This document shows, in pieces, positions 531-36,993 of a DNA stretch of 38,385 nucleotides (position 1 is its first letter; each line of letters starts with the position of its first letter). The notes under the pieces were generated by a model. It searched no databases. It was not told the DNA's origin and saw only the letters and a program-made list of their open reading frames with translations. This DNA comes from a virus: the IMG/VR virus record IMGVR_UViG_3300042879_002665, positions 1 to 38,385 of that record, one strand, 5' to 3'. The position numbers and the translations under genes were made by a program.

Positions 531-3500
531 TACGATTCTTCTCCGCTAAAGCAAAGTTCAACATCTTTATCCGTTACCATTGGTATGCAATATTTAATAT
601 CATTAATGTAAATTGCAACCAATTTATATGTTGGAGTTCCGATTAATCCACTAGATCCACTACTACTTGATCCTCCAGATCCAGACGATGACCCTGTTGT
701 TATAGCACCCCCAGTTGATGGCAAATAATCATTGACTTGGAATCCTCTACAATTTAAACTACAAGGATTACATGCACCACATGGAATGCTTGGATCATTC
801 AAACCACAATTGTCAGCACAACCAGATATTACACGACAATTACAACCTCTTGCTGGTGGCCAATTTGGAGAAGTATCTGGTGGACCTGGTGGTGGAGTTG
901 AATCATCGCTACTGCTGCATATTTTACCACATAATTTTTCACAACAAGGATCTCTGTATGATACACATTTTTTATCACCACAACCAGCAAAAAATGCAGT
1001 ATCACATGTTTCTAAAGTAACTGTTGTTCCCGAAGAATTTGTACATTCTTTAGACATGCATTTTCCATAGTTTGGACAAAAACCAGTTGAGCAATATGGT
1101 CCACTACTACTAGATTGACCTGGTGGTGGTGGTGGAACATCGGGTGGTGTAGATCCTGGAGGCCATGGTGGATTTGGCCAATCTCCTTCACGAACACATC
1201 CAGAACCAGCACCACCTACATTATCAAATGAGGTGTTTTCTGGTTTGCATGAATCAGTAATTGTACATATGGATACATCACATTGACAGGCATTTGCAGG
1301 ACAATAACCTAAAAAATTAAGAAGTCTTTCTGCTTTTTGCTTACTCATCTCTTGACCATAACAACTGTCACAGAATCCACTGAGAACTACATCTTGACAG
1401 TCATTGCACGGTGGACATGATGGTGTTGCTTGTACTCTACAACAATTTATTTTTCGAACAATATCATCAGTATCAAAGTTACACACTTGACCAAAATCTT
1501 CAAAAACAGAACACAAACCTCCATTAGTAGCACTATCTAAAGCTGCACATAAATTTCTAGTAAATGATTGCTCCTCAGTTGCTGGACTTGCATCTCCATT
1601 GGGGCAGTGAGTTTGTGTCAAACAACAACATGAATTTACAAGTGTAGTGCAAGTACCTCCCCCTCCTCCTTCACCCCCATCACCATTTCCATCATCATCA
1701 TCAGGTGGTCTACTACCTCCTCCACCTCCTCCCCCTCCTCCTCCATCGCTGCCATCGCTACCATCGCTACTTGGCGGTGGTGGTGGTGATGTTGGTGGCG
1801 GTGGTGGTGGTGATGTTGGTGGCGGTGGTGGTGATGTTGGTGGCGGTGGTGGTGATGTTGGTGGCGGTGGTGGTGGTGATGTTGGTGGCGGTGGCGGTGG
1901 TGGGGAAACTCCACATAAATTTACAGAACATGGTGTTTCTACATAAAATGTACCATTTTTTTGATCACAATCTGCTCTTGTGGTATATACACATCCTCCA
2001 TCATTTGGCAAACAACAAGCACCAGTATCATCAGTTACATTACACAAACATCCACAACTAATCTCATCGCACTGTTTTCCAGGTCCAGTGTATATTCCTC
2101 CTTGCTTTAAGCAATCTTCATATGATAAAACTCCTAAACATGTAGCTATTACAGTTCCACTTTCTATATTACACTTGCAACATGCACCAGCAATTGTACT
2201 ATAATCACAACAACTTACTGATGAACACAATGAAATGTCGGGAATTGATTTTCCACCCAATATTAATTCGCATTGTATTCTTGAATAATTTCCTAAACAT
2301 TGTCCATCTTTGCAACATACTGTTGGATCTCCACATGGATCATAACAGAATCTGCCCTGTGCTAATATTTCTTCTGGTGTCAATTCTCCAGGTGGATAAT
2401 TAAATGTTCCTCCACCGTAATTGCAATCTATTCCTGTCCAATAGTTTCCACCAAATTGATCGCATTGTGATACAGAAACATTTTCATTACATTCTCCATT
2501 TGTACAGCAAATTCCATTACCAGCACCACATGATTGTTCACATGGTTGTCCAGGATTGAATGTTCCAAAGAGTCTGTCACATACTGATCTGGTTGTATAA
2601 TCTACACATTCTAATGTATTATCTACACCTTGATAACAGCAAGATCCGTACAAATATCCTGGAATACATTGCCTTTCAATATTATTAATTCCATGACCAC
2701 GATGCGAAACTGTTGCTAACCATGTTTGACCACCATCATATGAAAGTAATCCTATAATATTTTTTCCACAAGTTAAGAAATTTTCATCTGGTTCAAAATA
2801 TACATTTTCTGGAAAATTCCAAACATCATCAGAATCTATTAATAATGTTAAAGATGCAATTTCACTCTTTCTAAATGAACCGCTGATTCCTCTTATTCCA
2901 ATGGGTGTTCTTAGAATAAAAGCACCACCAGAATTTGCATCTATAAACATACCCTGAGTTGTTCCAGCACCACCAGGCAAAACATTAGTAGATGTTAATC
3001 CACTTAATGAATTTGGTTTAACTGGACCAAGTGTTTTTATTCTAGCACCAGAATTTAAATGAAACGATGATGTGGATGGTGATGTCGTGTTTGTGAAATC
3101 ATAGGTTCCGCATAATCCAGCAGTTCCTATATTGGTATTAAATTTTAATTTTGCTCCATACACTGTTGTTGGATTTCCAACATACAACATATTATTTCCA
3201 TCAAAAGTAGATGGATCATAGTTTCCTATAACATCGTATCCATAATAAATACTGTCAATTGAAATATATTCATTATTTGCACCAGTTAATGATGCTCGTA
3301 ATGACCCATATGCACAAATTCCTTTAAAATTAAATGTTCCACCAGCGACGCTGAATAAAATTGGAACAGAATTTCCAGAATCAAAAGTAGCACCAATTAC
3401 CAATCCCGAAGTTTGATCAAAATTTGTAGTTCCCCTAAAGTAACCTGATATTTCTTGTATTATTGTATCTGATGGATAATTATCATCTTTATATGTGGCA

Positions 3501-19574: not shown

Positions 19575-22500
19575 TTATTTAGAAAATATTGCCTTTGGTG
19601 TTTTCTCATCATCCAACTTATAGTGTAAACCATCTCTTATCAAAATCAAATCCATAAAGTATGTAAATTCTCCCAACATACTGTGTGAAATTTCTGTTAC
19701 CAACCACCTTCCAGAAATTCTCTTATATTGTTTATCTACCATAGGTTTTGGCATATCGTTTGGTATTATTATTTCAACAACAGAACCTACTTCAACTTTA
19801 GTTGAAGGTGCAACTCTTATCTTTATCTTTTGACAATCAATTTGATTTAGGAATGAACTTCTCTTCAGTGGTAAATCGTGTTCAGTTTCCCAGAATGTGG
19901 AATAAGTTCTAGTATATTGTAAATAGTCTAAGAATTTATCTCCCTGTTCTGGACAATTACAACTACAAGTGGAAGAAGGATTTGACCATTCACACCCCAA
20001 CCATTCCTCCCCAAGTTCTTCTTCGATTAATTTACATTCATTTATTTCTTTATATAATTTATAAAGTTCCAAATATGTTGGTTCCGATTCTGTTGGAATT
20101 TTATTCAATGCTGGACAATTACAATATGGATCAAAGGTGCATCCACCAGCAGAACGAACAATACCATCTGGATTTGCACATTTCAAACCAATATCTTCAC
20201 AGGTTCTTGATCCTCTGGAGAAAACTGTAAATTGCATTGCAAAATTTCGATCAAAGAATTCATAATCAGTATCTACTGGTGGAGTAATCAATCCATATTC
20301 TGTTTCTCCACTCATGTCATACTTCCAAAGATCTTCAGCGAGTATAGGACTATTTCCTGGATTATATAAGGTGTACGATCCAGACAAATAATACATTAGC
20401 GAATCTTTAAAATATCCAGCAAGAGAAGCATTATGTGGATTTATTGTATCCTTACTTTCTTCTGTATTTGTCAAGAAAGCAAGATTTGGAGCATTTGCTT
20501 CAATCATAGCAGTTGCTGTTGGATTTAGTGAAATCCAATCATCAAATTCACTACCATACCATGTTCTCCAATAATTTGCAGAAAGACTGAATATACCTTT
20601 TCCACCAAACAAATCTCTCGCCTTTGTATTCGGCGTTTTGAATATGTTTGCAAATCTAATTGGTATAAAAAGATTTCTTGGTATAAACATAGACCACCAA
20701 GAACGATGTGGTTTTAATTTTCTATAACTATTGGGCAAAACAAACGATCCAACAACAGATGTTCTATACAATGGATCAAATTGTTTCTTGGAACTCATTC
20801 CATAATGATATAAAGATTCTCCCCAGTTCTGGGATTCATTCTCGAAATAATATCCACCACCCATATGGAAGTCCATATCATAACCACCACCATGCAAATC
20901 TTCTTGTGATGCATCATATGCATAATATGGATAATCGGTTTCAAACCCAACTTCAGGCCAAAGATCCATACCATTATAATCCGTGCTCAGATATGGAGTT
21001 TTTGCTAATACTGAACCAGTGTCGTGATTCCACCAATTATAATAATTTCCTTTGTCTATTCCTTGAAGTTTTCTATTCAATGGAATATCATCTTTGATCT
21101 TCTTTACAGCAACATCAAATCCATAAGGATCAATTCCAATTACTGCACTGTTGTATTTAACACCTTGTCTTCCCATTGGACCTGGTGTTAATTGTACAAG
21201 ATATGGCAAGAAGTATTCTGTACCAGCATCACGAATAAATCCATTTGGGAATTCTTGAATTCTATCCAAACCAATTGGACTTGCAAATTCAACTCTGACA
21301 TAGGAAGTAATTTCTTCTTTTTTGATGTTTGGTGGTTTTTGACCATTTGTATTATAGAAATTATAAGTTTGATCAAAATTTTCAGTACCAGTGACATTTA
21401 AATCTGCTTGTGCATTCCCATAATCTTCAAATGATTCTGTGTCGATATTAATTAAATTTTCAATATCATTACTTCCAATGTGAATTACACCAGTTTCAAC
21501 ATATTCACTGCCTCTAAATTTTGGTGGATAATCTCCACCAAAATCTGCACCATCGATGAATGATTCTGGATCATCAGTATTATCTGCATCTTCATAACCA
21601 TACCAACCATGTGATTCTCTTGAAGTTATGAATGCGTTACCATTTGTAGTATAACCTTGATTATAATATGGATGGAATGTGCTGCCTTCATCATTGTTGA
21701 AGAACACATTATAAACCCATTCTCCTGCTGAAGCACCAGTTATGCCTTTAGACTTAGCAAATATCTCATATCTGCTACCTCTTATTTCTTTTCTGGTAAC
21801 TGATTTGATGTTGTAAAGCGAAAGCGGAGAACCAATTGTTGTTTTTCCTAGTTCTTCATTCTTGAAAATATTTTCACCAGGTTTTTTAGAAAAGAAGAAT
21901 GCATTTCTATTATACCATTCAGTATAATGATCTGACCATGTTTGCTCATAGTCTTGTATCATGTTTTGTAGTGAAACTATTAATTGTCTTTCAACACGCA
22001 ACAATTGTATTTCTGCTAAACAGTTTCTTCTCAAAGACTCTATTGCTATTGAACTTAAACAAGTTGTATTATAGCATCCACCAAGTTCTAAACAACTTTG
22101 TGTTGTTTCTCTAATAGATTGATCTACTATTCCAGGAATTAAACCACTTTCTGTTCCATAATCATAAAATGACCAATCTCCTTGAACTCCACTCTCATCC
22201 CAAAGATAAGGTGCAGCATATAAGTAAATTTGACTAAATTGTGCTGCATAGTTCTTGGTTGTGTGTTTAATATAACCACGAACCACAGGATCGATGGAAC
22301 ACTGTCGGAAACAAGTTGTTCCTATCTTTTTGATATCCTTTTCAGTTGGTAATGCTGATGGGCCAGTTGGACCTGTTGGACCTGTTGGACCTGTTGGGCC
22401 TCTTGGTCCTGGTGGTCCTGGTGGTCCTGGAGGTCCAGGTGGTCCTGGAGGTCCAGGTGGGCCTGCAGGCCCTGGTGGGCCTTCTGGCCCTGGAGGTCCA

Positions 22501-24881
22501 AGACCAATACATGCGGCAATGCAATCATCGCGATTACTAAATCCGAAATTACTACCAGGAACAAAAACACAATCTTCGTTTCCAGCACCAGATTGACAAA
22601 ACCAACTACCAAAATCTGGACATCCAGCATTACATTCATCTATATTATTGTAAAATGGTTGATCAACACCACAACCAGATGTAGTTACCTGACAACCTTG
22701 TGGGGTGCAGCAATATCCAATTCCAAATCCAGAACGATTTGTAAATGTAAATGATTGATTTTGTGCAGTACATGGTGCTTCAATTTCAAAAACAACTTGA
22801 CCCACACCTTTTCCAATGGGAATAGAAGTGTGTGGTATCATTCCAAATTCATACTGCGAAATAGGCCAATCTGTAACTACTTCTCCAGGAATCGCATCTC
22901 CAACAAATTTATAACCCTGAAGAAGATCAATAGGTCTTTCTACTGGAGCAGTTATTCCTCTCTGTGGATCTCCATCTCCTACTTTAGTAATCAAAGTTGC
23001 AGTAAAAACAGCATCTGCATTTTGTTTGTAAATTGCAGATCTTTGATTTACGAATCCTAATAAATCAGTAATTCTAGTGTCAATTTGATCTAAAAGTATT
23101 TGATATTGATTATTTGCTCTTTGTATTACATGTGTGATATAAGCAGTCGGTGGAGTTGGTCCTATTAGATTAAAAAACTGACCTATAGTTTTATTATATG
23201 GATCTTTTGTGAGATCATATGATTGTGTTAGACCACGCTCATTGAAAGTATTTCCAGCATCATAATTTAAAAGATCTGTAAACGATCCTGCTGCAACCAA
23301 CTTATATGATTGGTCAAAATCGGCAAACATTCCTGTTGGACCAAATAGTAAATTGTATGTTGCACCACCAATTGGTCCTGGATTTGTTATCAGAGCAACA
23401 TCAGCAGTAGAACCCAGAGCACCATTTTCATGGCAACAAACTGTACATCTATATACTTCCCATTTTCTCTTTATATTTTTCTTGCGAGAATATTCATCCC
23501 TCTTCTTCATCAAAGGTTTGCGAATTTTCTCATGTATTGTTTTAAATGTGGTAAATTTTAAATTTGTCAAATCATATTGTGGTTGCCATACTTTAGAATT
23601 CCACGGTCCACTAAATGTGTTTCCATAAACATCCCATTGACCACCATGAACTTTTCCTTGGAAGAATGGAGTGTTTGCATAATTTTCATTATAATAACCA
23701 TATATTTGATCGTCCATTCTTGTCGATGGTTTTATGTTATTTTTTGGTGTAAATCCATCAGCAAGTAATTCTTTATCCTTCTTTGTTATTAATGGATATT
23801 TTTCGATTAATGGTTCTTTTTCTGGATCGTATTCATATACTACTTGTTTTTCTTCCATTGCATCATAGTGATTTGTAAAATCTGCATATGGATTTTTCCA
23901 ATTTGGTTCAATTCTTACATATCCACCAGCAAGAGAATTTTTATCTAATAATTTGTCGATATTATATTCATTTATTACTTGAAACTCTAAAATTCTATTT
24001 GGATTTACTTCATCGAAAGTAGTAATAAATCCATCAACTGGATCTATTTTTTTATCATTTGGTTTTGTTAATTTTGAAAGATCTCTAAAATTCCAACCAT
24101 TGCGGTCATGCCAACAAAAATAATAAGGATTGTTTTCTGAATTTGAAGCATACGAAGCTAAATATGTTAAAAGATCATTTACACGAATTTGTCCCTTGCG
24201 CTTCATCCAGGGATATGCAATGTGATCTTTCTTTAACCAAACACCATTTTTAGTTTCATCAATTTTATATACAGTAAAATTAAACTGTTTAAATATATTA
24301 TTGATTAAACCTTCTTTTTCATCCTTTGCTGCAATAAGACCAACATAATCTTCTGTATCCTCTAATATTGTTTTATTATAATTTGGTAGGAATATTTCAG
24401 AACTTATAAAGTATAGTCTCTTTAAAGAAAATATTTCATTTAATTGATTAACTTCGGATGTATATGCCTCATCTGTTATGATTTTAGAATCATATACATG
24501 AAATTTAAAATTTACAACTTTATCTTCACTCTTTCCATGTCCTGGAATTTTTATTTTTGCAAGTATTTGTTCTTTTCCAGTAAATGCAAATTCGTCTGCC
24601 CAATTTCTATAATCCTTAAATACTAAAGTACCATAAATGCATCCATCAGTCATGGATTCATTGATATTCATATTTAAATATGGAGTATCAATAGTTTGTT
24701 GAGCAGAATCTGCCTTCCAAGGTAACAACTTAAAAGATATAACCTTTCCATCAACTTCTTTAGTTAATGTCAATTCTTCCAAAAATCCACTTGTTGGATT
24801 TACTGGAGTGATGTTAGTATTTTTATCATCACCTGTTGATAATATATTTTGAAGTGTTTTAAATTCTGATTCTTCTGCCAT
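19575..24881 (-). CDS. Giant gp27-like baseplate hub protein with internal collagen/Cys insertion
   Basis: 1768 residues against 391 for T4 gp27. The N-terminal 300 residues ([21 protein letters not shown] ... [10 protein letters not shown] ... [15 protein letters not shown]) and the last 120 ([20 protein letters not shown] ... [19 protein letters not shown]) have the pattern of T4-like hub proteins, so both ends look like one hub fold split by a very large insertion. The insertion holds a Cys-rich segment (about 700-790; [20 protein letters not shown]), a run of about 16 collagen triplets ([17 protein letters not shown]; about 793-839), helical and beta regions, and a second Cys cluster near 1600 ([16 protein letters not shown]). 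ATG 24881 overlaps the gp53 stop (TAATG). It sits where T4 has gene 5. I see no lysozyme motif. Confidence 0.78.
22364..22502. repeat. Collagen-triplet coding repeat inside the hub gene
   Basis: Nine-base periodic DNA (plus strand GGTCCTGGT and GGACCTGTT units) encoding, on the minus strand, GPPGPP triplets and then GPTGPT triplets. It is GC-rich within an AT-rich gene. The Pro and Thr codons of the GPT units are CCA and ACA, which match the anticodons of the phage tRNA-Pro (TGG) and tRNA-Thr (TGT). Confidence 0.9.
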
Positions 24882-26776: not shown

Positions 26777-27220
26777 ATGGCATATAAAACTAAGTATTTT
26801 CCAAAAAATCCTACAAAATATATAGGTAACATAAATTCAATTAATTGTAGATCTCTTTGGGAAAGAAAATTTTGCAAATTTTTAGATATGAATGAAAATA
26901 TTATTAGATGGTCATTTGAGACTTTGAAAATACCATATGTATCACCTATAGATAATAATGTTCATATTTATTATCCAGATTTCATAGTAGAAAAGAAAAA
27001 TAAAAAAGGTGAGATTGAGACTATGGTTGTCGAAATTAAACCAGAAAAACAAACAAGAAAACCTACAGGTAAGAGAAAATCTAAAAAAAGTTTACTTAAT
27101 GAAAATATCACATATTCTGTGAACCTCAAGAAGTGGGAAGCAGCAAAAGAGTTTTGTGATAAACATGCATGGAAATTTGTTATAATAACAGAGAAAGAAT
27201 TATTCGATGCCAATAAGTAA
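26777..27220 (+). CDS. gp4: Head completion nuclease gp4
   Basis: 147 residues, close to T4 gp4 (150). Conserved layout: YIGNINSINCRSLWERKFCKFLDMN, IIRWSFETLKIPY, HIYYPDF, then VVEIKPEKQTRKP and SVNLKKWEAAKEFCDKHAW. The residues E (in WER), D (in YPDF) and E-x-K (in VEIKP) form the PD-(D/E)XK/TnsA-like nuclease site. In T4 the gp4/gp50 product finishes DNA-filled heads so that tails can join. It opens the rightward unit and overlaps the next gene by 14 bases. No strong Shine-Dalgarno is present before its ATG, and the divergent gap to gp48 is only 22 bases. Confidence 0.92.
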   Translation: MAYKTKYFPKNPTKYIGNINSINCRSLWERKFCKFLDMNENIIRWSFETLKIPYVSPIDNNVHIYYPDFIVEKKNKKGEIETMVVEIKPEKQTRKPTGKRKSKKSLLNENITYSVNLKKWEAAKEFCDKHAWKFVIITEKELFDANK

Positions 27221-27872
27221 CACAATAACAGAATTTAGACAAAATGTGCTAAAAAAGGGTGGTCCCCAATTAGCATCTTTTTATAAAATGGTAATGAGTA
27301 CTGGCACAGATTCTGTAACTGTTTATCCACAATCTGTAGTTTTACCTGGAAGATCGTTTTCGTTTTTTGAACATGATATTTGGGGTCCAGTTAGAAGAGT
27401 TCCATACAAGAGATTGTATACAACATGTAATGTCACTTTCATAATATATCAAGATTGGTCTGAAAAAGTATTCATAGAAAACTGGATGAATAAAATTGTA
27501 GTCTCCAATCCATATAGAGGAATAACACCAAGAGATATAGAAAAATCAACCCCAGGGTTGGGACAGGGAGAAAATACTCCTGGATTCTTTAATGGTTTTC
27601 TTGGAAGTGGTGGAAATGACGCTCCAGATGCAAACTTTGGAGAAGGTATATTTGATGAATGGATTGATTACTCTGCTGCTGGAACAGTAACAATAGATTT
27701 TTTAAATTCACAAGACAGATCAAAGGTCAATCATTCAATTGATCTTTATGAAGCATTTCCATCAACAATAAGTCAAGTATCAATGGGTTCGGATGCCACG
27801 GGGTATCCGTCATTTACAGTAGGATTTCAGTTTAGAAGTTATGCAGTTTACGGAGGTGGAGGAATTCCATGA
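27207..27872 (+). CDS. Tail-tube family protein (gp19/gp54-like)
   Basis: 221 residues. LPGRSFSFFEHDIWGPVRRVPYKRLYTTCNVTFIIYQDW followed by VFIENWMNKIV is the pattern of the T4 gp19 tail-tube family, as is the C-terminal TVGFQFRSYAVY. T4 gp19 has 163 residues; gp54, which starts the tube on the baseplate, is larger and belongs to the same fold family. Because it sits among baseplate and hub genes rather than beside sheath and portal genes, I lean to a gp54-like tube initiator, but it may be the tube protein itself. The start overlaps gp4 and the stop overlaps the gp26 ATG as ATGA. Confidence 0.75.
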   Translation: MPISNTITEFRQNVLKKGGPQLASFYKMVMSTGTDSVTVYPQSVVLPGRSFSFFEHDIWGPVRRVPYKRLYTTCNVTFIIYQDWSEKVFIENWMNKIVVSNPYRGITPRDIEKSTPGLGQGENTPGFFNGFLGSGGNDAPDANFGEGIFDEWIDYSAAGTVTIDFLNSQDRSKVNHSIDLYEAFPSTISQVSMGSDATGYPSFTVGFQFRSYAVYGGGGIP

Positions 27873-28573
27873 AATCGTTAATAGATAATATGATTAGAAG
27901 TTTGCCAAAATATAATGTAAAACAACCATCTACAAAAAAGACAATTACTTTCAGACCATTCGTTGTTCGAGAAGAAAAGACATTATACATGTCTAATGAA
28001 ACTGGAACCCATGAGGACTTTTTATCAACTCTTGGAAATGTAATAGACTCTTGTTTTGAATTAAAAACTGAAGCAAAAAATTTACCAATATTTGATATTG
28101 AATATTTTTTCTTAAAACTTCGTTGTAAATCTTTGGGAGAATTTGCAAATCCAACAATTATTTGTCCATATACTGGAGAAAAAATTAAAATAGAATTAAA
28201 TCTAGACGAAATTGAACCTTCATATTCTAAAGATCATACTAATGAAATAAAATTAGATGGATCAATTAAAATAAAAATGAAATATCCAACTTTAGAATAT
28301 TTCATAGAGGCAGAAAGAAATATAAAAGACTATTATGAATTAATAATAGATTGTATCGAAAGTATCGAAACCAAAGACGAATTAATCGAAAGTAAAAATA
28401 CATCCAGGGATCAAATTCAAGAATTTGTTGATGTTTTGAAGAAAGATCAATTTGAAAAATTAATATCTTTCATCAAAACTATGCCAAGAATTGAAAAGAA
28501 AATAGAGTATACAACAACGGACGGTAAAACTAGAGAAATTTTATTGAAAGGAATCAAAGATTTTTTTCTATAG
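27869..28573 (+). CDS. gp26: Baseplate hub assembly protein gp26 / tail chaperone
   Basis: 234 residues against 208 for T4 gp26. The conserved parts of the T4 gp26 family are present: TFRPFVVREEKTLYMSNE, IDSCFELKTEA, LPIFDIEYFFLKLRCKSLGEF and CPYTGEKI. The C-terminal half is acidic and helical. ATG 27869 overlaps the preceding stop (ATGA). The last sense codons run over seven consecutive T residues (28561-28567), a T-TTT-TTT slippery heptamer, and the stop follows two codons later. A -1 shift would join the protein to a 67-residue extension (see the next entry), giving 300 residues. In siphophages, tail chaperones are made as G and frameshifted G-T forms from a similar arrangement. Confidence 0.85.
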   Translation: MKSLIDNMIRSLPKYNVKQPSTKKTITFRPFVVREEKTLYMSNETGTHEDFLSTLGNVIDSCFELKTEAKNLPIFDIEYFFLKLRCKSLGEFANPTIICPYTGEKIKIELNLDEIEPSYSKDHTNEIKLDGSIKIKMKYPTLEYFIEAERNIKDYYELIIDCIESIETKDELIESKNTSRDQIQEFVDVLKKDQFEKLISFIKTMPRIEKKIEYTTTDGKTREILLKGIKDFFL

Positions 28574-28770
28574 GCCTCAGTGAATCATCTCTTCGTATTC
28601 ATTTAAAAATGTCATTTGATCTTTCATATTTACAAAAACTTGATATGACATTTGTAGAAACTATGATACCGTGGGAGAGAGATTTGTTCTTAGATCAACT
28701 GAGGCAGCACATAGAACAAGAAAATTTGAAGTACATGCAAGCAAAGGCAAGCAATGGCAGAAGGTTCTAA
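28534..28770 (+). CDS. -1 frame extension of gp26 (tail chaperone T-like part) or small ORF from ATG 28609
   Basis: The -1 frame relative to gp26 is open from 28534 to TAA 28768-28770. Read from the slip site it gives SIGLSESSLRIHLK followed by MSFDLSYLQKLDMTFVETMIPWERDLFLDQLRQHIEQEN and a short tail. The MIPWERDLFL..L...I..E pattern is the kind I associate with small conserved C-terminal parts of phage tail chaperones. An internal ATG at 28609 could start a 53-residue protein, but no Shine-Dalgarno precedes it. The frame overlaps the next gene by 17 bases. Both a frameshift product and a free small protein remain possible; the frameshift signals make the fusion more attractive. Confidence 0.7.
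   Translation, partial: RNFIERNQRFFSIGLSESSLRIHLKMSFDLSYLQKLDMTFVETMIPWERDLFLDQLRQHIEQENLKYMQAKASNGRRF
28561..28705 (+). promoter_or_regulatory. Candidate programmed -1 ribosomal frameshift signal
   Basis: T-TTT-TTT heptamer at 28561-28567 in the correct zero-frame phase, a 6-base spacer (CTATAG, which contains the zero-frame stop), then GCCTCAGT (28574-28581), exactly complementary to ACTGAGGC at 28698-28705. The 8-bp pairing spans about 116 bases, is GC-rich in AT-rich DNA, and could act as a long-range stimulator or the stem of a larger pseudoknot. Confidence 0.65.
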
Positions 28771-30610
28771 AACAAATACAAATAGAAATGCAGCAAATAG
28801 TTCTCTTAGAGATACTAATTTACTTGGTTCTAAAAGTTCAATAGATCGTTCTTCTGGCGGTTCATCGTATAGTGGTTCTTCTATATTTGGATCCGATACT
28901 TCAATTCCAGTATTACAAGCAAAAGATATTGATTTTCCAAATATAGAATCTTCAAAATCTGATGCAATTGAATTGTTAGAATTAAAATATGGAAGTGATT
29001 GGAGAGAAAAAGCACCAGCAAAAGATATTCAGAGAGCAAGAGATCTTACCAGATCGCAAAATGCAGAATCTGCAAGAGAGCAAAGATCAAATGATTTAAA
29101 TTCTAAAATAGAAACTAATAGAACAGAAAGACAACCATCTTTTCAATATGATGAAAAATCTGCTCGCGCAAATAGAGATAAAGTAGATCAAGCAAGAGCT
29201 ATCGAAACTGTTTCCCCAGAAGCAAAAGAATTGCTAATACTGAAATACGGGGAAGATTGGGAATCCAAAGCACCAGCAAATGACATCAGAAAAGCAACAG
29301 ATTTTACTAGATCTCAAAGAGCGCAAGGTGAAAGAGAACAAAGATCAAAAGAATTAAACTCTAATATAGAATCTAATAGATCTACCATAGAAACTAATAA
29401 GACAGAAAGACAACCACCTATTCAGTATGATGAAAAGTCAGAAAGAGCAAATAGAGATAAGGTAGATCAAGCAAGAGCTATCGAAACTGTCTCTCCAGAA
29501 GCAAAAGAACTTTTAATATTAAAATATGGAGAAGATTGGGAATCTAAAGCACCAGCAAATGACATTAGAAAAGCAACACAAATCTCTTCTTCTCAAAAAG
29601 CACAGGGCGAAAGAGAACAAAGATCAAAAGAATTAAACTCTAACATACAAACTACCAGAACAGAAAGACAACCATCTATTCAATATGATGAAAAAACTGC
29701 CCGTGCAAATAGAGATATTGCGGAAAGAGAAAAAATATTAACGGTGGTGAATGACGAGTCTTCCAAATTGCTGGAAATGAAATATGGAGAAACTTGGAGA
29801 AATGTAGCACCAGTTGATGATATGCGTAAAGCAGATCAAATGACTTCCTCGCAACAAGCACAGAGAGAGAGAAGTCTTAGATCATCTGAAATTACATCAA
29901 ACATTGAGACAGTAAGAATAGAACGAGAAGAAATAGAAAGACAAAAACAACTAGAATTGTTGGAACCAAAATCTTCTGATGGTTCTAGTTTAGAATCGCC
30001 AAGACCAGAACAAACAGTACCATTACCACAAAAATCATCACAACCAAGTCTACCAGAAACAATTCAGAAAAAACCAGCAGTGCAACCAAGCGTTTCCGTT
30101 GTTCCTCCAGAGCAACAAATAAAAGAAACAATAATAGAAAGAAATGCACAACCTGGAGATCTTACTGGTGTAACACCAGATGGAAGACAATTTACAGTAG
30201 ATAAAACTGGAAGAGTCACATATGGATCTCCACAATCTTCTAATACAGTTCAATCTCCAAGAATAAATGCAACTAATCCACAAACAAATCTTCAAATTGT
30301 CAAAGAAACTGAAAATAGTAGTTTAGCATTAGCAGAAAAAACTATTACAGAATACAATTCGAATAAATCAGAGTTTGAACACGAACAAGCAAAGGCACAA
30401 ATAAACTCCACAAATAGCATTAAAGACAGTTCAGAAGAAGAACGAAATAATATACAAAATGATTCTTTGTTAGATGTTCAATCTTCTCCATTGTTAAGTA
30501 GTATGGTAGACAAAGGAAAAAGATCTTATCCAAATATAAAAGAATCATTCAACAAACACATTGGAGTAAAAATGAACGACCCTCCAAGTTGGAGGGTCGC
30601 TCTAGGATAA
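28754..30610 (+). CDS. Repeat-containing hydrophilic protein in tape-measure position
   Basis: 618 residues with no membrane segment. The N-terminal 65 are Ser/Gly-rich. About four copies of an 80-90 residue repeat follow (about 68-150, 154-245, 250-332, 335-395), each with ELL-LKYG-DW, AP--DIRKA, Q-E-EQRS-EL-SNI, ERQP-IQYDEK and ANRD motifs. Repeats 2 and 3 are nearly identical at DNA level (29200-29300 and 29480-29580), indicating recent duplication. The rest is Pro/Ser/Gln-rich with LTGVTPDGRQFTVDKTGRVTYG near 460. The position directly after the gp26 and chaperone-like ORF is where tape-measure genes usually lie, and 618 residues is close to T4 gp29 (590). Sequence similarity to gp29 is not evident, so this role is a guess. 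AAAGG lies at a suitable distance before ATG 28754. Confidence 0.7.
   Translation: MAEGSKTNTNRNAANSSLRDTNLLGSKSSIDRSSGGSSYSGSSIFGSDTSIPVLQAKDIDFPNIESSKSDAIELLELKYGSDWREKAPAKDIQRARDLTRSQNAESAREQRSNDLNSKIETNRTERQPSFQYDEKSARANRDKVDQARAIETVSPEAKELLILKYGEDWESKAPANDIRKATDFTRSQRAQGEREQRSKELNSNIESNRSTIETNKTERQPPIQYDEKSERANRDKVDQARAIETVSPEAKELLILKYGEDWESKAPANDIRKATQISSSQKAQGEREQRSKELNSNIQTTRTERQPSIQYDEKTARANRDIAEREKILTVVNDESSKLLEMKYGETWRNVAPVDDMRKADQMTSSQQAQRERSLRSSEITSNIETVRIEREEIERQKQLELLEPKSSDGSSLESPRPEQTVPLPQKSSQPSLPETIQKKPAVQPSVSVVPPEQQIKETIIERNAQPGDLTGVTPDGRQFTVDKTGRVTYGSPQSSNTVQSPRINATNPQTNLQIVKETENSSLALAEKTITEYNSNKSEFEHEQAKAQINSTNSIKDSSEEERNNIQNDSLLDVQSSPLLSSMVDKGKRSYPNIKESFNKHIGVKMNDPPSWRVALG
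30577..30599. terminator. Bidirectional terminator-like hairpin inside the gene end
   Basis: Perfect 9-bp stem CGACCCTCC/GGAGGGTCG with loop AAGTT, placed within the last codons of the 618-residue gene and between two convergent genes. No clear T-run follows it on the plus strand, so termination efficiency is uncertain. Confidence 0.6.
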
Positions 30611-34774: not shown

Positions 34775-34864
34775 AATATCTCCTTGATTGAATTGAGAGC
34801 TGTAAAAACGAGTAACACGAAACAATTTTGTTGGTTTTGTAAACATATATTTTTCAAACATAAG

Positions 34865-34938
34865 CATTCCCGAGAGGACTCGAACCTCTGACCATCGGTT
34901 TAGAAAACCGATGCTCTATCCAACTGAGCTACGGGAAC
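34865..34938 (-). tRNA. tRNA-Arg (anticodon TCT)
   Basis: Complete cloverleaf of 74 bases: acceptor GTTCCCG/CGGGAAT (one G-U), D arm GCTC...GAGC, anticodon stem TCGGT/ACCGA with loop TTTCTAA (anticodon TCT), T arm AGAGG-TTCGAGT-CCTCT. CCA is not encoded. It reads AGA, the arginine codon used heavily here. Confidence 0.96.
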
Positions 34939-34946
34939 ATGCCATC

Positions 34947-34975
34947 ATTATACCATGATGGTGGTCCCTTGTCAA
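34947..34975 (-). promoter_or_regulatory. Consensus sigma70 promoter for tRNA-Arg
   Basis: TTGACA (34975-34970), 17-base spacer, TATAAT (34952-34947), directly upstream of tRNA-Arg. Both hexamers and the spacing are ideal. Confidence 0.85.
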
Positions 34976-34978
34976 GTG

Positions 34979-35284
34979 TTAAACTGAAAGTTTAAGATTT
35001 GGTTCTACAATTTTCTTACTAGGAACTGCTAAATTATTTACGATAACATTTACAAAATGATTTTCTAGTTCCTGTTGTGGTTTAATTGTAAACATGACAT
35101 TTTTCTTATCCAATGTGATTCCACCATCAGTAATTGCATATGGCAACCATCGTGCTAGTAGCAATTTTCCTTCTGGGGATGGGATTAGAATTGATGGATT
35201 CTTTAAAGTAATTGAGGTTTCTGTCTCCTCAATATTTGCAATAACTTCTTCACCACTATTAAAACGAACAATCATCACACTCAT
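34979..35284 (-). CDS. Small beta-rich protein, possibly LSm-like
   Basis: 101 residues from ATG 35284 with AGGAG at 8 bases. The opening MSVMIVRFNSGEEVIANIEETETSITLKNPSILI, a short beta-barrel-like pattern (a GEEVIA turn followed by T-x-x-x-x-x-NP), recalls LSm-like folds in small phage proteins. The remainder, KNVMFTIKPQQELENHFVNVIVNN, is consistent with a compact cytoplasmic protein. Function is unknown; an RNA-binding role would be speculation. It is 5 bases after the preceding gene. Confidence 0.65.
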   Translation of the reverse strand: MSVMIVRFNSGEEVIANIEETETSITLKNPSILIPSPEGKLLLARWLPYAITDGGITLDKKNVMFTIKPQQELENHFVNVIVNNLAVPSKKIVEPNLKLSV

Positions 35285-35289
35285 TATAT

Positions 35290-35511
35290 TTACTCCTTGT
35301 TTTCTGAACATTTAAACATTATACGATCCCAAAATGTACACTTTGGTGGTTTTTCTATTGGCCAACATGTTGCACAATCATTTGGCATGAATTTTTGATT
35401 TTCAGGTTCTGTTGCTCTCAACACTCCCTTTTCTACTTCCTTCATAGTAAGGAGTAGATCTAAACAACGACCATCTTTAGTTGTTTGTACATGAATTAAT
35501 TCTTTTGCCAT
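35290..35511 (-). CDS. Small four-cysteine protein of unknown function
   Basis: 73 residues. MAKELIHVQTTKDGRCLDLLLTMKEVEKG, then CATCWPIEKPPKC and a last Cys in MFKCSENKE. The C-x-x-C plus two more cysteines could bind a metal. ATG 35511 is preceded by GGAGGT, which itself directly follows a TATAAT box. The family is not recognised. Confidence 0.65.
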   Translation of the reverse strand: MAKELIHVQTTKDGRCLDLLLTMKEVEKGVLRATEPENQKFMPNDCATCWPIEKPPKCTFWDRIMFKCSENKE

Positions 35512-35520
35512 ATGACCTCC

Positions 35521-35548
35521 ATTATATCAGATTACATACTAATGTCAA
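35521..35548 (-). promoter_or_regulatory. Promoter for the 35511-34979 gene pair, abutting the ribosome site
   Basis: TTGACA (35548-35543), 16-base spacer, TATAAT (35526-35521), then GGAGGTCAT and ATG 35511. The expected start point (about 35514) would lie between the ribosome site and the ATG, leaving only about 3 leader bases. Confidence 0.7.
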
Positions 35549-35873
35549 TATTTATCTTTCCCTTTTTTGTCTTTAATTTCTTAGAAACAAAATCATATAT
35601 CAATTCTAAAGATTTTAGTCCAATAAAACCCATTATAAATGCAGCACCATATTTACCATTATTTTGTATTGATTCTGGCATAAAATGAAGAGCAATTGGA
35701 GTCAAATAATTTGCACACAATGCTCCTGCCAAAATCGAAGTTATTGCTCTTCCTGGTGTTTGATTTTTTGCTGTTAGTGCTAAAAGCAAAGCACCAAAAA
35801 ATCCTGCCAACATAAGACCAAGATCTATACCAATTCCTGTAAAATTATCAGTGTTATTGCTTTGTTCCTGCAT
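35532..35873 (-). CDS. Putative holin-like membrane protein
   Basis: 113 residues with about three hydrophobic segments (LGLMLAGFFGALLLALTA, about 18-35; AITSILAGALCANYLTPIAL, about 43-62; YGAAFIMGFIGLKSLELIYDFV, about 74-95) and a basic tail (KKLKTKKGK). Size, segment count and charged C-terminus fit a phage holin, which would form the membrane lesion for lysis. There is no lysozyme gene in this window to support it. AGGAATC lies before ATG 35873. Another small inner-membrane protein remains possible. Confidence 0.55.
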   Translation of the reverse strand: MQEQSNNTDNFTGIGIDLGLMLAGFFGALLLALTAKNQTPGRAITSILAGALCANYLTPIALHFMPESIQNNGKYGAAFIMGFIGLKSLELIYDFVSKKLKTKKGKINIDISM

Positions 35874-35943
35874 TTATGATTCCTTATATTCAGTTATACT
35901 AAACACATCTTATATAAGGTTAACAAATATATGTATAATTTAT

Positions 35944-35968
35944 AAAAAAACCCACCATTGCTGGTGGG
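35944..35968 (-). terminator. Intrinsic terminator of the tmRNA
   Basis: CCCACCA-GCAA-TGGTGGG stem with a tetraloop, followed by seven T on the minus strand (35950-35944). It closes the tmRNA transcript and possibly the whole tRNA-array transcript. Confidence 0.9.
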
Positions 35969-36185
35969 GGTCAATTCAGATGCGGGATGACCAATCCCCA
36001 CTGCTTCAGGCAGCACGACGCATTGGTGCGGCGTTTATAGTTGCCAACTTTGGCATTTAACGAGGGTTGTTGACTACCTCTCGGATATCTCCCTGTTGCT
36101 CGCTTCCCCCTGTCGATTCTGTTCGACCCCGTAGGTTTGAATGGAGTCGGGGGGATTCGCACCCCCGTGCAGTTGGGTAGTTTAC
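35969..36185 (-). ncRNA. ssrA: Permuted (two-piece type) tmRNA
   Basis: The acceptor piece comes first: T arm GGGGG-TGCGAAT-CCCCC (36166-36150), CGACTCC (36149-36143) and discriminator A. An 11-base spacer (36141-36131) follows, then the 5' acceptor strand GGGGTCG (36130-36124). The strands pair over 7 bp with G3-U70, the alanine identity pair. Next come a D-loop piece AATCGACAGGG, a PK1-like block CCGAGAGG...CCCTCGTTAAA close to the E. coli arrangement, and a tag frame at 36044-36006: GCA to TGA, encoding ATINAAPMRRAA. This RNA rescues stalled ribosomes with SmpB. The T loop (TGCGAAT) is unusual. Outer ends and the processing site are approximate. Confidence 0.92.
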
Positions 36186-36199
36186 AAAGATCAACGATA

Positions 36200-36514
36200 T
36201 CATGGTTTATTTATAAATTCTTGTAGTGAAGAACCTAAAGATGTCAAACGAGCATTCACTAACATTGCTTCTCCAGCAATTCTTTTAAGTTCTTTGTTTA
36301 CTTCTCCAATAATAATTCCTTTATCTTTGTGTGAATTGCTATACATTTGTTCCAATTCATCAATATCTGGTTTCATTGGAAAATGCTTCAAACAATCAGA
36401 TGCTTTTTTGCGAATTTCTCTAGGAACCTTTGGCGTTTTTTGAGCATCTAAAAGTTGAAAAAGAAATTCACGAGTATTTTTCATCGAAATGAACCATTCA
36501 TTTGGTAAAGTCAT
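36200..36514 (-). CDS. Small protein with MTLPNEW...NTREFL N-terminus
   Basis: 104 residues from ATG 36514, preceded by AGGAAAA; a longer open frame runs back through the tRNA-Pro gene and is not credible. MTLPNEWFISMKNTREFLFQLLDAQKTPKVPREIRKKASDCLKHFP resembles small proteins with a similar start and RxxA...L(K/R)H(Y/F)P spacing (BPSL0761-like), known from bacteria and phages with no known function. The C-terminal part is helical. It lies between the tmRNA and the tRNA array and is probably co-transcribed with them. Confidence 0.7.
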   Translation of the reverse strand: MTLPNEWFISMKNTREFLFQLLDAQKTPKVPREIRKKASDCLKHFPMKPDIDELEQMYSNSHKDKGIIIGEVNKELKRIAGEAMLVNARLTSLGSSLQEFINKP

Positions 36515-36528
36515 ATAAATTTTCCTAA

Positions 36529-36602
36529 TCGGGGTGACTGGATTTGAACCAACGACTTCTTGCTCCCAAAGCAAGCGCACTACCAAGCTGTGCTACACCC
36601 CG
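36529..36602 (-). tRNA. tRNA-Pro (anticodon TGG)
   Basis: 74 bases. Acceptor CGGGGTG/CACCCCG, anticodon stem CTTGC/GCAAG with loop TTTGGGA (TGG), T loop TTCAAAT. It decodes CCA, the proline codon of the GPT repeats. Confidence 0.96.
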
Positions 36603-36605
36603 CAA

Positions 36606-36677
36606 AGCCGCCTGTGAGATTCGAACTCACGACCTATGCTTTACAAAAGCATGGCTCTACCGCTGAGCTAAGGAGGC
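36606..36677 (-). tRNA. tRNA-Thr (anticodon TGT)
   Basis: 72 bases. D arm GCTC...GAGC, anticodon stem ATGCT/AGCAT with loop TTTGTAA (TGT), T arm GTGAG-TTCGAAT-CTCAC. The acceptor stem GCCTCCT/AGGCGGC has one T-C mismatch at pair 4-69, which may affect stability. It reads ACA. Confidence 0.93.
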
Positions 36678-36679
36678 AA

Positions 36680-36752
36680 CTCTCTGAACTGGGATTGAAC
36701 CAGTGACATCGAAGTTAACAGCTTCGCGCTCTACCTGCTGAGCTATCAGAGA
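36680..36752 (-). tRNA. tRNA-Asn (anticodon GTT)
   Basis: 73 bases. Acceptor TCTCTGA/TCAGAGA, anticodon stem CGAAG/CTTCG with loop CTGTTAA (GTT). The gap to tRNA-Thr is only 2 bases. Confidence 0.95.
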
Positions 36753-36753
36753 A

Positions 36754-36835
36754 TGGATGATGAAGGACTTGCACCTACGAAGTCTAAAGACAAGAGATTT
36801 ACAGTCTCTCCCCGTTGCTGCTTGGGTAATCATCC
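36754..36835 (-). tRNA. tRNA-Tyr (anticodon GTA)
   Basis: 82 bases with a long variable arm (about 15 bases, GTC...GAC stem), typical of bacterial tRNA-Tyr. Acceptor GGATGAT/ATCATCC, anticodon stem AGAGA/TCTCT with loop CTGTAAA (GTA). One mismatch in the T stem (GTAGG/CCTTC). Confidence 0.94.
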
Positions 36836-36840
36836 CACAA

Positions 36841-36914
36841 TACCCTCACGGGGACTCGAACCCCGACTCACCGCCTTGAAAGGGCGGGGATTTAGCCAGT
36901 TAATCTATGAGAGC
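36841..36914 (-). tRNA. tRNA-Glu (anticodon TTC)
   Basis: 74 bases. Acceptor GCTCTCA/TGAGGGT (two G-U type pairs), D arm GATT/AATC, anticodon stem CCGCC/GGCGG with loop CTTTCAA (TTC), T arm CGGGG/CCCCG. Confidence 0.93.
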
Positions 36915-36918
36915 ATAG

Positions 36919-36993
36919 TACGCTGCCTTGGATTCGAACCAAGTCTTACTCGATTATAAGTCGAGCTGAGATAACCAAGACCTCCCGCAGCGC
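36919..36993 (-). tRNA. tRNA-Ile (anticodon TAT)
   Basis: 75 bases. Acceptor GCGCTGC/GCAGCGT, anticodon stem CTCGA/TCGAG with loop CTTATAA (TAT), T arm CTTGG/CCAAG. It decodes ATA, a frequent codon in AT-rich DNA. First tRNA after the array promoter. Confidence 0.92.

Follow-up and report, generated by a model that had tools for sequence, protein, structure and literature searches.

A putative long-range stem next to the poly-T frameshift site of gp26-like tail assembly chaperone genes in phages

Introduction

The question raised by this locus is whether a phage gp26 gene and the small open reading frame behind it are joined by a -1 ribosomal frameshift, and whether two distant complementary segments, one just past the shift site and the other well inside the small frame, form a stem that stimulates the shift. 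The locus lies in a stretch of 38,385 nucleotides (IMG/VR virus record IMGVR_UViG_3300042879_002665), which we call the window.

Vladimirov, Gautam and Davidson reportedly described TAC-N/TAC-NC tail assembly chaperones of T4-like phages with a poly-T -1 site and, for the T4 group, a short and a long form encoded separately (Virology 566:9-15, 2022). The passage of PMC12846349 that cites this work (its reference 76, Vladimirov et al. 2022) treats poly-T runs as established -1 signals in the TAC-N genes of T4-like phages, and the corresponding passage of PMC10885494 (its reference 44, the same paper) mentions T4-like phages with a short and a long gene instead. The frameshift itself is thus not new, because TAC frameshifting in T4-like phages has already been published. 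PMC3004832 counts T4 gp26 and gp51 among the hub assembly chaperones. Our literature search found no description of a conserved long-range frameshift stem in phage tail genes, and no paper linking cyanophage gp51 with frameshifting.

A conserved frameshift site at the end of gp26

The features of the locus are given in Table 1. The final codons of gp26 are GAT TTT TTT CTA TAG and contain, as the original prediction had it, an in-phase T_TTT_TTT heptamer followed by a 6-base spacer that holds the stop. The prediction of an open -1 frame and a 300-residue fusion was also correct: the frame is open from 28534 to 28767, with a stop at 28768-28770, and the predicted fusion (233 + 67 = 300 residues) would carry the peptide DFFSIGLSE at its joint.

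Table 1. Features of the gp26 locus in the window
Feature	Position	Strand	Description
gp26 / TAC-N gene	27869..28573	+	234 aa; 0-frame stop TAG 28571-28573; tail assembly chaperone; Pfam PF12322 E 1.6e-53; PHROG 150 (baseplate hub) E 7.6e-58
Slippery heptamer T_TTT_TTT	28561..28567	+	Predicted -1 shift site, in phase at the end of gp26
-1-frame extension (TAC-C / gp51-like)	28567..28770	+	67 aa and stop; PHROG 634 'baseplate hub assembly catalyst' E 1.4e-10
6-nt spacer CTATAG	28568..28573	+	Contains the 0-frame stop; between heptamer and 5' arm
5' arm of putative stimulatory stem, GCCTCAGT	28574-28581	+	GCCTCAG(T); starts at +6 after the heptamer
Loop between the arms	28582..28697	+	116 nt; RNAalifold adds four inner pairs (alignment columns 23-26 with 132-135), of which the window keeps only a part
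3' arm of putative stimulatory stem, ACTGAGGC	28698-28705	+	(A)CTGAGGC; inside the extension
Next gene	28754..30610	+	618 aa; internal repeats of about 100 aa; overlaps the extension by 17 nt

Relatives were gathered from a phage collection, in which 1440 phage records contain gp26 relatives, and from IMG/VR; the protein queries were blind to RNA pairing, and duplicates were removed. Outside the T4 group and phage CBA120, which are discussed below, this gave 169 distinct junctions. When these were compared, as had been proposed together with the prediction, T_TTT_TT followed by C (100 junctions), T (63) or A (6) was found in phase just before the stop, with an open -1 frame, in all 169, and the extension was about 50-70 residues long. 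The 0-frame stop began 3 nt past the heptamer in 135 of 166 junctions, and the codons GAT TTT TTT were identical in all 28 members of the window clade (defined below). From each genome's own codon use, the required T_TTT would be expected by chance at about 0.41 per locus, or about 10^-22 over 57 clusters if these are taken as independent, which is approximate. Since the heptamer, its phase and the open -1 frame are conserved in all 169 non-T4-group junctions, the frameshift is supported.

The window is a single virus contig, and an assembly error or a pseudogene frameshift could give such an arrangement. However, the same layout in 169 distinct junctions, independently sequenced isolates included, refutes a sequencing error, which we regard as next to impossible. 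The extension was, in addition, under protein-level constraint, with 10 synonymous and 8 nonsynonymous changed codons in frame; the corresponding ratios for the other two frames were 2:13 and 2:15. Transcriptional slippage, by which a fused mRNA would arise at the T run, was also rejected. The seven Ts of the window would suit it, but most relatives (100/169) have only six Ts and then C, six Ts being short for RNA polymerase slippage, and the phase and the downstream stem fit ribosomal shifting. We consider it extremely improbable.

The PHROG 634 match of the extension covered positions 60-118 of the 121 in the profile, and its tblastn matches bear the gp51 annotation in cyanophages and HTVC008M. 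PHROGs supplied this match; a Pfam search with the extension gave none. In most records the small frame is annotated separately, and it might be an ordinary gp51 gene with its own start or with translation coupled to gp26 termination, as in GenBank; in PX29, Moby and D525 an ATG overlaps the gp26 stop. However, none of the 28 clade members, the window included, had, within the first 30 extension codons, a start preceded by a Shine-Dalgarno-like sequence, which bears out the original statement that the small frame lacks a ribosome site, and outside the clade only 12 of 138 junctions had one (126 did not). Conserved residues were present just past the shift, upstream of the annotated gp51 starts, across phages (e.g. 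Syn33), and the heptamer was conserved even where the ATG overlaps. An independent gene was therefore rejected as highly improbable, and in PX29, Moby and D525 coupled re-initiation may take place in addition to the shift. The comparative sequence data support the joining of gp26 and a gp51-like extension by a -1 frameshift of the TAC-N/TAC-NC type.

An AlphaFold model was made for one clade member (L121) from an input alignment of the window and collection loci only (pLDDT 85.5). It matched viral baseplate hub assembly chaperones strongly, and in the PDB the HK97 TAC (2ob9) ranked third with a weak match (E 0.44). Searching PDB sequences with the TAC-N profile yielded no significant match.

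A long-range stem in the window and its clade

The original prediction had also pointed to an 8-bp complement across the extension. GCCTCAGT and ACTGAGGC are indeed perfectly complementary over 8 bp, with 116 nt between them. Among relatives, however, the eighth pair (T-A) was kept in fewer than half of the clade, and the conserved clade core is therefore 7 bp, GCCTCAG/CTGAGGC, and not 8. In the window the stem gave p=0.005 against synonymous-codon shuffles, the smallest value possible with 200 shuffles, and RNAfold assigned pair probabilities of 0.90-1.00 to its eight pairs.

Chance was the initial expectation for such a match, and it was ruled out by a codon test at synonymous sites. The window clade consisted of 28 distinct junctions (the window, L005 and loci among L116-L149, those from L130 up having been fetched with gp26 alone). 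The test covered 82 four- or six-fold degenerate codon columns of gp26 and the extension in 365 sequence pairs that were less than 80% identical. The four most conserved of the 82 columns were the four stem codons, with synonymous codon identities of 1.00 for AGG, CTC and xGC and 0.93 for CTG, whereas medians elsewhere were 0.34-0.44. The same approach, applied to a cluster of five loci, gave no information. The 5' arm GCCTCAG was present in 28 of 28 members; its Leu codon was CTC in 28/28. In the 3' arm the Leu codon was CTG in 24/25 and the Arg codon AGG in 28/28. One member (L127) kept the stem with a G-U pair, and one end pair was broken in five (L124, L136 and L131-133).

Compensatory change was seen in an outgroup, L006 (about 43% identity), which has CCCTTAG/CTAAGGG at the same two places and thus two compensatory swaps. 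The close relative L005 was uninformative for pairing because neither arm has changed. As the clade arms hardly vary, the covariation here comes from the one outgroup; in the clade with L006, 90.5% of cells were paired, and the pair-change counts were weak when taken alone (41/500 shuffles). A register slid by +3 had a higher covariation score, yet only 48.7% of its cells pair. We take the long-range stem, preserved at synonymous sites in 28 clade members, to be real as far as sequence conservation can indicate, and it is the main new finding of this work.

Stems in other members of the family

The family was analyzed by taking, for each junction, the best contiguous helix whose 5' arm lies 3-14 nt after the heptamer. 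The null was a set of extensions recoded with synonymous codons of the same genome, which left protein and codon use unchanged. Only contiguous helices with both arms within the extension were scored. A significant stem (p<0.05) was found in 85 of 166 loci and in 29 of 57 cluster representatives, 17 of them at p<0.01. As a positional control, the 5' arm was placed at offsets from 20 to 106 nt downstream, and 15, 8, 7, 6, 4 and 1% of loci were significant (7, 7, 4, 2, 4 and 0% of cluster representatives). Among nine held-out named phages, six reached p<0.05 (P-SSM2, HTVC008M, Cr30, S-CAM1, DSL-LC02 and PVA8), although PVA8 is not a fully independent test because its stem is identical to that of D525, a member of the first set.

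Among the 85 significant loci, the 5' arm started at +6 in 42 and at +7 in 14. Most known 3' stimulators begin 6-9 nt past the shift site, where the mRNA enters the ribosome (PMC5009743), and both the start at +6 in the window and its clade and the family peak at +6/+7 fit this distance. The 3' arm recurred at several positions, with loops of 4-9 nt (local hairpins, as in S-SSM7 and P-SSM2) and of about 30-46, 84-96, 116-118 and 147-149 nt. P-SSM2 (loop of 9 nt), Astolliot (32 nt) and phiM12 (45 nt) represent independent arrangements. In the loop-38 group 96.9% of cells were paired and in the loop 84-94 group 92.3%, both inflated because these loci had been picked mostly for having such a stem, so that the swaps and the positional control are fairer evidence. 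One pair of the loop-38 group was C-G 10 times and U-A 8 times with none broken (0/500 shuffles), and pair 20-119 of the loop 84-94 group was C-G 7 times and U-A 6 times, again with none broken. In slid registers of the covariation groups 13-69% of cells paired, and RNAalifold recovered the long-range stems unprompted. These patterns suggest that across the family the 5' arm stays fixed, and that the 3' arm would be supplied from several places, with compensatory changes.

It is conceivable that the frameshift is real but proceeds without structure, the arms being conserved as a binding site, as an RNA-processing signal or to regulate the gene downstream. Some slippage occurs at poly-T heptamers unaided, and 81 of the 166 loci had no significant contiguous stem. 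With half of the junctions lacking one, the stem is not universally required in contiguous form. However, the two conserved elements are mutually complementary, many lineages with differing sequences have the 5' arm at the stimulator distance, and the pairs co-vary, which neither a shared binding site nor downstream control predicts. We consider this explanation unlikely. The original suggestion of a long-range stimulator stands to the extent that the putative stem survives the codon conservation test, the positional control and the covariation counts, which makes it a candidate stimulator.

Proposed mechanism

We think it very probable that a stem-aided -1 shift at T_TTT_TTT yields a minority product, TAC-NC, beside TAC-N. 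Most ribosomes would stop at 28571 after gp26 and give the short TAC-N. A minority, paused at the heptamer by the stem 6 nt downstream, would slip back by one base and add the 67-residue gp51-like TAC-C domain, giving TAC-NC. The pausing stem would be a long-range one, formed by GCCTCAG, which directly follows the stop, and by CTGAGGC in the extension, about 118 nt away. Such a stem could stay folded because 0-frame ribosomes stop 3 nt past the heptamer and presumably never enter the extension. TAC-N and TAC-NC might act as in lambda, jointly loading the tape measure and recruiting the tube protein. We infer that the stem stimulates slipping, and likewise the ratio of the two products and their function in tail assembly; the chaperone role is assigned because of the family (lambda G/GT, PMC5009743; T4 gp26/gp51, PMC3004832).

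A more tentative and rather unlikely idea is that the stimulator is family-wide, with a fixed 5' arm about 6 nt past the heptamer and a wandering 3' arm (loops of 4 to about 150 nt), and that the distance between them sets a refractory time. Each shifted ribosome would run through the 3' arm and the stem would re-form only after its passage, which might curb consecutive shifts and keep TAC-NC:TAC-N at a low, steady ratio. If these proposals are true, a further and apparently simpler long-range frameshift stimulator would join the barley yellow dwarf virus (BYDV) and IS3411 types and would be placed in a very common phage group. They would also imply repeated evolutionary replacement of one helix strand with the other staying in place, and control of the ratio of short to long chaperone would become directly testable.

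Relation to known systems

The lambda G/GT heptamer differs from T_TTT_TTT, and the protein family is also different. What is shared is a -1 shift where the short chaperone gene ends, the gene-order logic and two products with a common N-terminus (Levin 1993; PMC5009743), and in these respects the locus would follow the lambda logic invoked by the original prediction. With the T4-like TAC-N/TAC-NC system (Vladimirov 2022), the window shares gp26 as TAC-N, a gp51-like TAC-C and the poly-T site, whereas the texts of PMC12846349 and PMC10885494 that cite this work make no mention of a conserved stem with a fixed 5' arm and a long variable loop. In Vandenendeviridae and Andersonviridae, which are other phage families, the TAC section of PMC12846349 describes a predicted -1 shift at GTTTTT, a -1 frame that is open in every genome and a downstream frame misannotated as a separate gene; that section reports no stem.

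Pairing of a distant 3' sequence with an element just past a -1 site is shared with IS3411-type ALIL pseudoknots (44-104 nt) and barley yellow dwarf virus (about 4 kb) (PMC5009743). In those systems, however, the apical loop pairs with an internal loop of pre-formed stem-loops, whereas the distal segment described here itself forms the 3' strand of the stem, at a place that varies by lineage. RNAalifold, which cannot draw pseudoknots, gave a simple long-range stem. The E. coli dnaX signal also has a simple stem a few nucleotides after a -1 heptamer (PMC5009743), but that stem is a local hairpin, whereas the loops found here reach 116-149 nt.

The T4 group, CBA120 and annotation of gp51

In the three T4-group genomes examined (T2, EP32a and STML-198; L021, L029 and L030), the heptamer was absent and gp26 kept Phe-Phe as TTC TTT, in line with expectation if a shift site is not required. 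In these genomes gp51 is complete and separate, and is transcribed from the opposite strand, divergently from gp26. The fusion profile matched T4-group gp51 across the shift point (profile 75-285 in EP32a, the junction being at about 237), and gp26 is a paralogue of gp51 (EP32a, E 1.9e-9). Accordingly, what the other phages would make by frameshifting appears to be encoded by two genes in the T4 group. CBA120 (L024, Ackermannviridae) has, around 3221-3405, a gp26 homologue with an open -1 frame and a 53-codon extension, and no T_TTT_TT heptamer.

GenBank gp51 or hypothetical genes in six loci (L002, L003, L034, L212, L218 and L219) begin at internal codons, well within the conserved extension, and the annotated proteins therefore miss its conserved N-terminal part. 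In cyanophages, pelagiphages and their relatives, many genes that GenBank labels 'gp51 baseplate hub assembly catalyst' look misannotated and are probably the -1-frame tail of gp26.

The downstream gene and other features of the window

The 618-residue frame that follows gave no tape-measure match in Pfam and PHROG family searches. In HTVC008M and Cr30 the annotated tape measure follows the TAC gene with one small frame between them, and the 618-residue protein is a tape-measure candidate by synteny only. The only relative found was on the L005 contig, with 50% identity; gp26 there is 94% identical, so this frame evolves much faster than gp26.

Upstream of gp26, a head-closure (gp4-like) protein at 26777-27220 matched the N-terminal domain of TnsA-like endonucleases (Pfam PF08722, E 7.9e-21), and on the minus strand a 1768-residue frame at 19575-24881 has a collagen-like stretch of GPP/GPT repeats. 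A permuted tmRNA gene, also on the minus strand, was found at 36006-36201 (Rfam RF04321, 67.6 bits; ARAGORN tag AAPMRRAA) within a phage tRNA cluster at 34864-36993.
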